Virus record (IMG/VR): IMGVR_UViG_3300011114_000818
Coordinates: 1-33,249 of that record
Length of the DNA stretch: 33,249 nt
Strand: one strand, 5' to 3'
Source: a virus
Shown in pieces: positions 4,276 through 11,371 of this stretch (the stretch's first letter is position 1; every line of letters begins with the position of its first letter). Both the position numbers and the translations under genes were made by a program. The notes beneath the pieces are model-generated. The model was not told the origin of the DNA and did not search any database. It worked only from the letters and a program-made list of their open reading frames with translations.

Positions 4276-4334
4276 TATGGGTCGCGGGTGAATAGTCGGA
4301 CATCCTAACCACTCACCTGAGTTTAGAATGTCGC

Positions 4335-4374
4335 AAAAAAAAAGGCCCCAAGGAGGAGCATCCCTGGAGCCTTT
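4335..4374 (-). terminator. Rho-independent terminator after the major capsid gene
   Basis: On the minus strand AAAGGCTCCA pairs with TTGGGGCCTTT (ten pairs with one G.U) and is followed by nine T. It sits 26 bases after the MCP stop codon and should end most capsid transcripts. Confidence 0.9.
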
Positions 4375-4400
4375 CTCAATTGCCGAGGTTGGGCGGCAAA

Positions 4401-6683
4401 TTATGCGCTGAGGCTCACAACCATGTTGAAGCCTGGAGCGGAACAAATTACGTTGCCGTAATAAGCAATACGGATTTCGAGAGCATCCGCATTTCCGACT
4501 CGAAGACCTTCAAGGCCTTCCATGCCGTAAGTGAGAATGTGTGGTGCTTTACCCAAGGTCCTGAGTTTCCAGGTGTCTGTGGTCAAGCAATAAGCAGTCA
4601 ATGGAGGACAGGATCTGTCAGCCACGACTGGGATTTTGCCGTAAGCAGAATGAAAGTGAATGGCTTCAAAAGCCACTTCAACTTCATCATGCTCAAGCAT
4701 GACGTACTGAACTTTCGCACCCAAGGAATTGACGAGAGACGCATAGCTGACAAAATCAAGAATGATCAAGTCAAACGATGCACCTTCTCGGTTCCCGTAA
4801 GCGAGAGCAGAAGTTAGACCTTCTTCGATGGTAAGGTTCGTTGCATTGTAACGAAGACCTGCCAAACGAGTTGGGTCAGCAGAGCGATTAACGCCCCAAT
4901 AGTTGTCATTCGATGGTGGATCAACGTTTGGAACCCAAGCAGCTAGGCCGGAAAGACCTAACATACCTGCGATTGTGGAAGATCCAGCAATCCCGATGTC
5001 TCCCAACACCTGAACGTAGTCGTTAGCTGCCCATGAAGTCTGAGGAGCACCTTGCACGACTGTTCCGGTAATGACGCCAGTTCCACGATTCACAGAAGTG
5101 ATCTGAATCGCGTCAATGGTGCCTGGTGTGTTCTGAAGTGCTGCACCGCCATCGGTGACAGAAGCTTGCAGAGTCATCCCCACTTCAAACTGAACTACCT
5201 GCTGACTGTTGGCCAACGTGAAGGTCAAGTTTGGAGAAGAGTAGGTCACACCAGCAGACGAGATCTGTCCACGGGAAGCGGTACCGCCCGAGAAAAGCTC
5301 GAATGCCATGTTGTTGGACAAGTTTCTGAAGCCGTTGTCCATCGTGCGGGAAGCTTCGTCTACGAATGCCCCAGCATTGGTTTTGGTCTGTTCCATCAAA
5401 AGATTTGTGATGGTGACCAATTGATAATCCTGCACAGCGTACACGAAGTAGCTGATGACAGAAGAAGCGGTTTGCTGATTCTGTGCATTAGCAAATGTAT
5501 GTGCGCGGCCTTGAGGGTTCAGTCATGTTCCCATGAGGCTTTTTATCCTCATCTCTGATATTTTATTGTGTAGTTGAATGCTTTTTCAAGAGTTTTTGCA
5601 GTATCACCTAACAATCCTAAGCCTCTATTACATTTATCACACAACAAACCTCGTATTTTATTTGTTGTATGATCATGATCAATTACCAATCCACGAGAAC
5701 TTAGTTTGCTTTCATGAATTCCGCAAATTTCACAACAATAATTACAAGCTAATCTCATTTGATCAACTTGCTCTCCAGTTAAACCAAATTTCGCTTTCCT
5801 TTTAGTATCCCTGATTCTTTTTTTATTGTTGTCTCGCCATTCTTTTTGCTTTGCCGCTAATTTAGGTCCAAAAGCTTTTTTCATTTTCATGTATCGGGTG
5901 CTATCGCACTTTTTACATATATAAGCTAATCCGTCAGGACTTGAATTGCGTTTCCAAAAACAATCACGAGGTTTAAATTCTTTGCACGTACTACATTTTT
6001 TCACATCAGCTTGGCGTACATTTTCACTCATTTTTACCTTTTGAGTGTCAGGCACTCTTGGTTGCTTATATTCTACACTATTTATGTAGGTTCATCAACT
6101 ACGCTCTACGATGGCCTAAGTGCTTTAATTCTTAGGCTTATCTCGGTATTAGCATTTCAGCCTTCACCGATATTGCCCGATTTTAATACGGCAATTCCTC
6201 AAGTTTACCGTATTCCAAAGGAACCAATTTGTTACTCCGGCTTTTGCCGTGGCTTACTCACCTCTTCGGGCTTCAGCTCTTGGATTTATTTTGTTATGTC
6301 CAAGATCAGACTATCGCATACGCTTTCGCGTCCCTCTCGCTTAGTCGTTCACGCTGGCATTACCCTTGCGCCTTGTTGTCCTCTTCAGGAGTTCCAAGTC
6401 AATTAGAGAAGGTTTATCATCCCCAATTCCTTTAGGGATGTATTTCCCTGCAAATCCGTCCAATTCCTTTAGATTTTAAGAGAGACCCGACGGTTAAATA
6501 ATAGGACTCTCGTTTTTAGGAATCATGGCAAGCCACGGATTTTTTGCATACTTGTTCAGGAAAATTTTACATCGTCTATGCTTAAATAACGATGTTTTTC
6601 ATGTAGTCTTTATCGTCTACATAAAGTTCTTTAAGTGCAGCAATCTGATTGCTGCTATTTGCGTATACTGGTGAAATAGCCAT
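4401..6683 (-). CDS. Major capsid protein, gene split into five exons
   Basis: Joining exons 6588..6683 (32 codons), 6503..6550 (16), 6434..6460 (9), 6207..6224 (6) and 4401..5519 (372 plus stop) gives one 435-residue protein. All joints fall between codons. The start ATG (6683) follows AAGGA at six bases. The joined N-terminal region runs MAISPVYANSSNQ, YAKNPWLAMIPKNESP, DGFAGKYIP, VPLEYG, NPQGRAHTFANAQ. I recognise this as the continuous conserved order of podovirus capsid proteins (KNP..A.IPK, GKY.P.P, YG.PQGR..TFANAQ). Neither end is functional alone: unspliced translation from the start stops after 33 codons. The large exon carries the rest of the HK97-type fold, including NLSNNMAFELFSGG. 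The scaffold gene is immediately upstream and a terminator follows. Exon limits were chosen by protein continuity and by P1, P10 and terminal-G signals, which agree at every joint. Confidence 0.88.
5520..6206 (-). ncRNA. Insert 4 in MCP: group I intron (687 nt) carrying an HNH endonuclease gene
   Basis: The upstream exon ends AATACGGT and pairs with GCCGTATT in the insert, giving seven Watson-Crick pairs plus a terminal U.G (P1). CTTGAGG just 5' of the guide pairs with CCTCAAG in the next exon (P10, after a small internal loop). The insert ends ...GACTG with the terminal G expected of group I introns. Inside, GCCTAAG/CTTAGGC forms a perfect P6-like hairpin, and an ATCGGT...ACCGAG pairing resembles P4/P5. 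GTAGTTGA (6102..6095) is an exact 8-base complement of TCAACTAC (5577..5570), a good P7 candidate. ATGAGG/CCTCAT near the 3' end is P9-like. The HNH frame starts inside and its last codons supply the second P7 strand. The first in-frame stop comes after seven codons. Confidence 0.82.
5549..6031 (-). CDS. Intron-encoded HNH homing endonuclease, endonuclease VII-like
   Basis: A 160-residue protein. I chose ATG 6031 because AAAAGG lies five bases before it; an upstream GTG at 6055 would add eight residues. Residues 13-42 hold two CxxC pairs (CSTC, CKKC), a zinc knuckle that probably binds DNA. The middle is Lys/Arg rich. The C-terminal domain (about 96-150) has CEIC at 100-103, the catalytic DHDH at 118-121, IRGLLCDKCN at 126-135 and NRGLGLLGD. 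This is the signature of the recombination endonuclease VII family, in which the four Cys hold a structural zinc. Such enzymes in group I introns cut intron-less alleles and so spread the intron by homing. The gene lies wholly inside insert 4 of MCP, and its last codons overlap the intron core. Confidence 0.9.
   Translation of the reverse strand: MSENVRQADVKKCSTCKEFKPRDCFWKRNSSPDGLAYICKKCDSTRYMKMKKAFGPKLAAKQKEWRDNNKKRIRDTKRKAKFGLTGEQVDQMRLACNYCCEICGIHESKLSSRGLVIDHDHTTNKIRGLLCDKCNRGLGLLGDTAKTLEKAFNYTIKYQR
6225..6433 (-). ncRNA. Insert 3 in MCP: compact group I intron (209 nt) with full core
   Basis: P1: exon CATCCCT with intron GGGGATG, six pairs plus the closing U.G. P10: AAAGGAAT with exon 4 start GTTCCTTT, eight pairs with one wobble. 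Core motifs in order: GGCGCAAGGGTAATGCC (P4/P5), CAGCGTGAACGACTA (P6 and the first P7 strand, GACTA at 6346..6342), ACGC-GAAA-GCGT (P8 with tetraloop, 6331..6320), ATAGTCTGA (second P7 strand, TAGTC at 6313..6309), then TCTTGGA/TCCAAGA (P9) and CGGC-AAAA-GCCG. It ends GTAACAAATTG. The AACGACTA...ATAGTCTGA...GTAAC..AATTG pattern closely resembles my memory of the Staphylococcus phage Twort intron (subgroup IA2). There is no reading frame inside. It is the only insert with a clearly complete and compact core. Confidence 0.9.
6461..6502 (-). other. Insert 2 in MCP: 42-nt core-less mini-intron
   Basis: It lies between ...KNESP and DGFAGKYIP of the capsid protein. P1: exon GAGAGTCCT with insert GGGTCTCTC, seven Watson-Crick pairs, one T-T mismatch and the closing U.G. 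P10: CCGTC directly 5' of the guide pairs perfectly with the next exon start GACGG. The last base is G (…AAAGGAATTG). An in-frame TAA occurs at the third codon. Only about 19 bases remain after P1, far too few for P3-P8. It shares ATTATTTAA at its start with insert 1 (ATTTAA). Its 3' end ATTG before G matches the 3' end of insert 3, so it may be a relic of a full intron that lost its core. Confidence 0.8.
6551..6587 (-). other. Insert 1 in MCP: 37-nt core-less mini-intron
   Basis: It lies between ...DDKDYMKNIV and YAKNPWLAMIPK. P1: exon ACATCGTT with insert GACGATGT, seven Watson-Crick pairs plus the closing U.G at the cut. P10: GCATA directly 5' of the guide pairs perfectly with the next exon start TATGC. 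The insert ends CCTGAACAAG, so the last base is G. The second codon inside is TAA, and 37 is not a multiple of three, so without removal the capsid frame is lost. No ribozyme core fits. Removal by a core supplied from another part of the transcript is inferred; the pairings are seen. Confidence 0.8.
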
Positions 6684-11296: not shown

Positions 11297-11371
11297 TGGC
11301 TGGCGAGGTAGGGCTTGAACCTACGACCGCCCGGTTAACAGCCGGGAGCTCTACCACTGAGCTACTCGCCA
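11297..11371 (-). tRNA. tRNA-Asn (GUU anticodon), CCA encoded
   Basis: On the minus strand a complete cloverleaf is seen. The acceptor is TGGCGAG/CTCGCCA (7 pairs), the D arm GCTC-AGTGGTA-GAGC, the anticodon arm CCCGG-CTGTTAA-CCGGG with anticodon GTT, and the T arm GTAGG-TTCAAGC-CCTAC. A discriminator G is followed by an encoded CCA (11299..11297). The 5' end overlaps the last ten bases of the terminase large-subunit gene, including its TAG stop, so the tRNA must be cut out of the terminase transcript. Virion proteins here are visibly Asn-rich, which may explain carriage (inference). Confidence 0.93.

Follow-up and report, generated by a model that had tools for sequence, protein, structure and literature searches.

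How can inserts of 37 and 42 nt, with no room for a ribozyme core, leave the transcript of a phage gene by way of group I splicing? Group I introns are defined as self-removing ribozymes, and the question is raised by a capsid-type gene in a 33,249-nt stretch of viral DNA (IMG/VR record IMGVR_UViG_3300011114_000818, positions 1 to 33,249; this whole stretch is hereafter the window). A first-pass annotation had read two interruptions of the gene as core-less introns bearing group I substrate helices, and had proposed that a ribozyme serves them in trans. We find 29 such mini-introns among related viral contigs, each with a full group I intron downstream of it in its gene; with few exceptions their tails are complementary to the exon that borders a full intron. 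The two full group I introns of the window gene and the tail-to-exon complementarity were both absent from the first-pass annotation. We propose that the mini-introns are very probably non-autonomous group I introns served by the core of a full intron in the same transcript, with the tail helix acting as a stand-in for P2. Help from the core of another intron is supported by these data; "in trans" needs refining to a full intron of the same transcript, engaged through a third helix.

The window gene is broken by inserts at 6551..6587 and 6461..6502, coordinates that proved correct. Intron-free relatives encode exactly ...KNIVYAKNPWLAMIPKNESPDGFAGKYIPVPLEYGNPQG..., which fixes the ends of both inserts, and in most of the 80 closest IMG/VR relatives the gene is uninterrupted, with its exons joined exactly as proposed. 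Insert 1 forms a P1 of 8 bp (ACAUCGUU/GACGAUGU) with a U.G at the splice site; its P10 (GCAUA/UAUGC) and that of insert 2 (CCGUC/GACGG) are present as claimed. The P1 of insert 2 (GAGAGUCCU/GGGUCUCUC) was borne out as a helix closed by U.G, but it pairs at 8 of 9 positions, and its one U.U mismatch had gone unreported. Both inserts end in G and have an in-frame stop by codon 2 or 3, again as described. The lack of room for a catalytic core holds across the whole family: at 30-59 nt in total, mostly used by P1, P10 and the tail, the mini-introns contain no P3-P9 core with its G-binding P7. In shuffle tests on single inserts, p was 0.0005 for insert 1 and 0.05 for insert 2; combined by Fisher's method over 26 distinct inserts it reaches ~1e-38, a figure that, as the sequences are related, should not be taken as an actual probability.

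Six scans of viral contigs (IMG/VR; loci of relatives carry an L label) yielded 267 loci, and 58 non-identical genes without a single continuous annotated frame were subjected to spliced protein-to-DNA alignment; no relatives were found in genome contigs or GenBank phage records. By size, the inserts that it revealed fall into two groups with a clear gap between them: 29 are short (30-59 nt) and 50 are long (193-888 nt). The 29 mini-introns (26 of them distinct) are spread over 27 genes and several sites (after DD, KNIV/LVY, NP, NESP, FAG and others). All 29 have a U at the 5' site opposed by a guide G, the U.G pair that closes P1, and 28 end directly in G, as does the remaining one (L250) once an equivalent boundary is taken. 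Immediately 5' of the guide there is a P10 of 5-8 bp in every mini-intron except one (L048, amino acid 43), where it is offset by 1 nt. P1 and P10 together reach at least 12 pairs in 16 of the 26 distinct mini-introns, as against 3 of 3600 random segments of the same length, and when the guide is placed by P1 alone, 20 of 26 have a P10 of at least 5 bp where 0.7% would be expected. Two exon variants at the NESP site, GAGAGUCCU and GAAAGCCCU, accompany the guides GGGUCUCU and GGGGCUUU, and the codon CCU is found there in 9/9 interrupted genes versus ~7/64 uninterrupted ones. An in-frame stop occurs within 28 of the 29 inserts, mostly by codon two or three; early in-frame stops are a tendency of phage group I introns. 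The base that precedes the terminal G, where a P9.0 pairing would be expected, is U in 19/26 mini-introns and in 43/46 full introns.

The mini-introns are strictly associated with full introns. A full intron is present in 27/27 genes that bear mini-introns, always 3' of every mini-intron, at a distance of at most 118 nt for 28 of the 29 and of 302 nt for the other, whereas 0/86 genes without a full intron carry a mini-intron (Fisher 2e-18, relatedness ignored). Twelve genes have a full intron and no mini-intron, and other genes within ~4.5 kb of the capsid-type gene contained no mini-introns. The number of examples, this strict link and the covariation described below support the first-pass reading of the inserts as core-less introns with group I substrate helices. 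In the window, the interrupted gene comprises five exons and is laid out as follows.

6588..6683, minus strand: exon 1, MAISPVYANSSNQIAALKELYVDDKDYMKNIV (MAISP...KNIV); 6588..6595, the last 8 nt, serve as exon strand in the P1 of mini-intron 1
6551..6587, minus strand: mini-intron 1, 37 nt, without a core; P10 strand GCATA 6577..6581, P1 guide GACGATGT 6569..6576, tail strand ATTTTCCTG 6557..6565, terminal G 6551
6503..6550, minus strand: exon 2, YAKNPWLAMIPKNESP; its first 5 nt, TATGC, are used by the P10 of mini-intron 1
6461..6502, minus strand: mini-intron 2, 42 nt, without a core; P10 strand CCGTC 6489..6493, P1 guide GGGTCTCTC 6480..6488, tail strand TCTAAAGGAAT 6463..6473, terminal G 6461
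6434..6460, minus strand: exon 3, DGFAGKYIP; CAGGGAAAT at 6442..6450 pairs with the tail of mini-intron 1, and full intron 3 uses the exon end, CATCCCT 6434..6440, as exon strand in its P1
6225..6433, minus strand: full intron 3, 209 nt, class B group I, without an open reading frame (ORF), predicted core for mini-intron 1; guide 6418..6424, P7 GACTA 6342..6346 / TAGTC 6309..6313 (by eye)
6207..6224, minus strand: exon 4, VPLEYG; GTTCCTTTGGA at 6214..6224 pairs over 11 bp with the tail of mini-intron 2, and the P1 of full intron 4 takes its exon strand from the exon end
5520..6206, minus strand: full intron 4, 687 nt, class A group I with an ORF, predicted core for mini-intron 2; guide 6185..6192, P7 GCGTA 6100..6104 / TACGC 6014..6018
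5549..6055, minus strand: HNH/recombination endonuclease VII-type ORF within full intron 4, with an in-frame ATG at 6031; presumed homing endonuclease
4401..5519, minus strand: exon 5, NPQGRAHTFANAQ... up to the stop

The feature that ties a mini-intron to a particular full intron is its tail, the stretch from guide to terminal G, which can base-pair with exon sequence immediately 5' of a full intron. Mean tail-exon duplex energy along the exon remains at a background of -3 to -5 kcal/mol except at one place, a peak that ends 6-7 nt before the 5' site of the full intron and reaches -12.1 kcal/mol, compared with -4.6 for shuffled and -3.9 kcal/mol for swapped tails; the tail helix lies flush with the P1 of the full intron. 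In the window, the tail of mini-intron 1 (AUUUUCCUG) finds its complement, CAGGGAAAU, next to full intron 3, and that of mini-intron 2 (UCUAAAGGAAU) passes over intron 3 and pairs with GUUCCUUUGGA beside full intron 4. The L113 mini-intron also passes over the nearer full intron, and forms 10 bp beside a second one ~1.1 kb away. This rule fits 24 of the 26 distinct mini-introns, L250 among them weakly. The helix covaries at synonymous exon positions (GCG/GCA/GCU, GGU/GGA/GGC, AAA/AAG), with 0/500 shuffles as good, and tails pair better with the exon of their own gene than with the corresponding exon in other genes (-14.2 versus -8.4; permutation p 5e-5), a preference that common descent alone does not explain. 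Minimum-energy folds contain the mini-intron P1, the tail helix and the P1 of the full intron together in 17 of 25 cases. Pairing of the tail with the intron core (P3, J8/7, P9.2) was also considered, and inspection by eye gave no consistent partner there; the partner found was the exon. A 13-nt near-repeat, CTAAAGGAATTGG, is present at 6472..6458 (mini-intron 2) and again at 6436..6420, across the boundary of exon 3 and full intron 3; it is explained by the ability of each copy to pair with the start of exon 4 (6224..6214), one as tail helix and the other as P10.

The structure of the partner introns indicates what this helix might do. Partner introns of class A have no P2 hairpin between P1 and P3, where the spacer measures 0-6 nt. 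Twenty-two of 24 P2-less class A introns are partners, versus none of the 11 with a clear P2-hairpin insertion (Fisher 2e-7; the comparison leaves out one ORF-bearing L048 intron). The order mini-intron P1, tail helix, full-intron P1, P3 equals the ordinary order P1, P2, P3, which puts the tail helix in the position of P2. Judged by secondary structure, the tail-exon helix probably replaces P2, and the full intron's own P1 would be stacked at the place of a P2.1.

On the strength of their sequences and covariation, the full introns of the capsid-type gene are group I introns. The Rfam group I model RF00028, used as a detection aid and not as a functional criterion, gave no match at E up to 1 in the window and 8 relatives, and the cores were therefore established by covariation instead. 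In an alignment of 29 class A introns, P3, P4, P5, P7, P7.1 and P8 covary, with 89.8% of cells paired, 151 two-sided changes and 0/500 shuffles as good. Four P7 types occur among the full introns (GCGUA/UACGC, GACUA/UAGUC, GCAUA/UAUGC and GAGUA/UACUC), and the class B introns, ~200 nt long and ORF-less, carry the T4-like GAACGACUA...GAUAGUCUGA. One site, between FAG and K, holds a full intron in six loci (L250, L015, L266, L084, L204 and L222) and a mini-intron in others (L044/L045 and L190), which suggests that mini-introns originate from full introns whose core was lost after a neighbour became able to serve. In L258, a regular-expression hit resembling a core signature lies in an intergenic stretch, outside the capsid-type gene, and proved to be a false positive.

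Other observations concern the same introns and their surroundings. The full interruptions at residue 12 of the capsid-type protein in L048, L174 and L179 measure 637-888 nt, and the ORF within them is GIY-YIG-like (by eye, IIYFV...VYIGQT) and not of the HNH type. Compact ORF-less class B introns of 201-216 nt occur at several C-terminal sites, in the 3' half of the gene (L041, L045, L061, L236, L244 and L219), and seem to be a mobile ORF-less family. Close phage pairs with and without introns were also seen (L028 and L029, 99%; L003 and L045, 94% flank identity), and in L045 the identity falls in the exons that flank the insertions, as homing co-conversion tracts would give. The interrupted gene follows genes for the terminase, the portal and a scaffold-like protein, and this order underlies its putative identity as a capsid-type gene; a predicted model of the protein is of low confidence (pLDDT, the predicted local distance difference test, 52.5), with a weak match to phage capsids. 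Directly past the gene, 4345..4359 holds a hairpin and T run resembling an intrinsic terminator, which overlaps a sub-threshold Rfam match to ctRNA_p42d at 4333..4376 that is probably due to chance. A tRNA-Asn (GTT) gene at 11297..11371 adjoins the terminase gene.

We envisage the following course of events, in which splicing itself, its chemistry and order, the use of the core in cis and the action of the helix as P2 are what we infer from the sequences. The mini-intron itself would contribute the P1 hairpin that holds the 5' splice site, with the exon U opposite the guide G, as well as a P10 strand and a terminal G, whereas the core would be lent by the downstream full intron. The mini-intron P1, the tail helix and the neighbouring core would together make up a composite ribozyme, whose composite P1/P2 carries the mini-intron's 5' site to the neighbour's core. 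A guanosine would attack after the U at that site; the terminal G of the mini-intron, a few nt past the tail helix, would then enter the same site while P10 aligns the exons for joining. With the mini-intron gone, the full intron would splice itself out with its own P1 and P10. We think it likely that these elements form a natural class of satellite introns, core-less and docked by a tail-exon helix that replaces P2, in which one core splices two or more introns in turn.

Several observations weigh against this proposal. The genes are related by descent, and the p-values overstate their independence. Co-transfer by homing could add in part to the co-occurrence of mini-introns and full introns, although linkage of this kind leaves the covariation of the tails, their preference for their own exon and the exclusion of P2 unexplained. 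A P2-less full intron of L190 (amino acid 29) lies in a gene that has no mini-intron partner for it, and the mini-introns of L194 (amino acid 20) and L048 (amino acid 26) have no convincing tail helix. The P10 of the mini-introns is a pseudoknot. Exact searches of viral contigs for two spliced junctions of the window phage returned no match.

Other routes to an intact protein must be weighed against the same evidence. The mini-introns might be removed by a ribozyme on a separate RNA, either an excised phage intron or a host intron, with the link to a downstream intron incidental. Excised introns do keep their cores. Engineered ribozymes, moreover, need just P1/P10-type recognition (PMC4094466). 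We nevertheless consider this route improbable, as mini-introns are confined to genes with a full intron and always lie upstream of one, their tails pair specifically beside the P1 of an intron in the same gene, and neighbouring genes within ~4.5 kb have none. Removal on the RNA by an as yet unknown protein enzyme, with the group I introns again incidental, would make use of the way in which the P1, P10 and tail pairs join both exon ends like a splint for cleavage and ligation; that the 5' site is a U.G wobble and the last base a G, both hallmarks of group I chemistry, and that partnership is exclusive with P2, which makes sense only for a group I core, render it highly improbable.

The inserts might also stay in the messenger. 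In translational bypassing the ribosome hops over the insert, and the systems of T4 gene 60 and the yeast mitochondrial byps resemble the mini-introns in having short, untranslated-looking inserts in coding sequence, with early in-frame stops and a hairpin at the take-off point. The take-off and landing triplets match in 0/29 mini-introns, however, and 5/29 inserts split a codon; the ribosome would be expected to melt the exon strand of P1 before take-off, and the strict U.G, terminal G, P10 and linkage to full group I introns would go unexplained, which leaves bypassing very doubtful. Finally, the mini-introns might do nothing, as deletion remnants of full introns or as assembly artefacts in dead genes, and the shared FAG/K insertion site does make deletion of a core a plausible origin. 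Against this stand their recovery from many separate metagenomes, in some cases as near-identical copies in different samples, a coding sequence that is intact and conserved once the inserts are omitted, and maintained covariation and matching of tails to their own exons, which imply selection; we give this explanation very little credence. The account that fits best is splicing by the core of a same-transcript full intron.

To our knowledge, the borrowing of a neighbour's core by a core-less intron is known only from engineered ribozymes; the open-licence literature that we searched yielded no naturally occurring example of a core-less group I intron, and priority is thus uncertain. The degenerate group II and group III introns of Euglena plastids are tiny, have shed parts of the ribozyme and are presumably helped from elsewhere. 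Theirs is group II chemistry with unknown helpers, whereas the mini-introns have group I signals and an identifiable partner core. Engineered group I ribozymes excise internal segments in vitro and in E. coli, and these trans-excision and spliceozyme ribozymes recognise their target from a separate molecule via P1, P9.0/P9.2 and P10 (PMC4094466), removing up to 28 nt and 100 nt, respectively (PMC4094466, PMC4509937). The likeness would lie in a group I core that cuts out an internal segment between two splice sites with P1 and P10-type recognition, and the mini-introns possess both of these substrate helices. These ribozymes, however, are engineered separate molecules that contain the guide, while the mini-introns are natural, hold the guide within themselves and are tethered by the tail-exon helix; this helix and the co-occurrence point to a core in the same transcript and not to a separate RNA.

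Natural exchange of splice sites between complete introns is known from exon skipping in phage Twort orf142, and tandem group I introns with exon skipping also occur in Coxiella 23S rRNA (PMC10136302). There, too, the splice sites of one intron are used with another in the same transcript, across a short exon, but the introns have full cores and the exon is skipped, whereas the mini-introns are core-less and the short exon has to stay in the product. Among the phage group I introns that carry homing endonucleases are T4 td and nrdB, those of Twort and of Bastillevirinae (PMC11878797), and a capsid intron in cluster J (PMC3706429). The full introns of the window resemble them in their group I core, U.G 5' site and terminal G, and one has the HNH-type ORF; they differ in escaping the Rfam group I model, and the mini-introns differ in lacking all of P3-P9.

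The mini-introns apparently have lost the ribozyme, kept the splice-site helices and the docking helix, and come to rely on a neighbour. This bears on the old question of how self-splicing introns could have given way to dependent ones that share one catalyst, in the manner of spliceosomal introns, and makes that step towards dependence testable in a small, fully defined RNA. The arrangement also offers a natural design rule for excising short RNA segments, namely a P1, a P10 and a tail helix flush with the helper's P1, and short out-of-frame gaps in phage genes may be introns overlooked by present annotation. If our proposal is true, the engineered spliceozyme would have a counterpart in nature, and the mini-introns would mark an early stage on the way from self-splicing introns to those dependent on shared splicing machinery.
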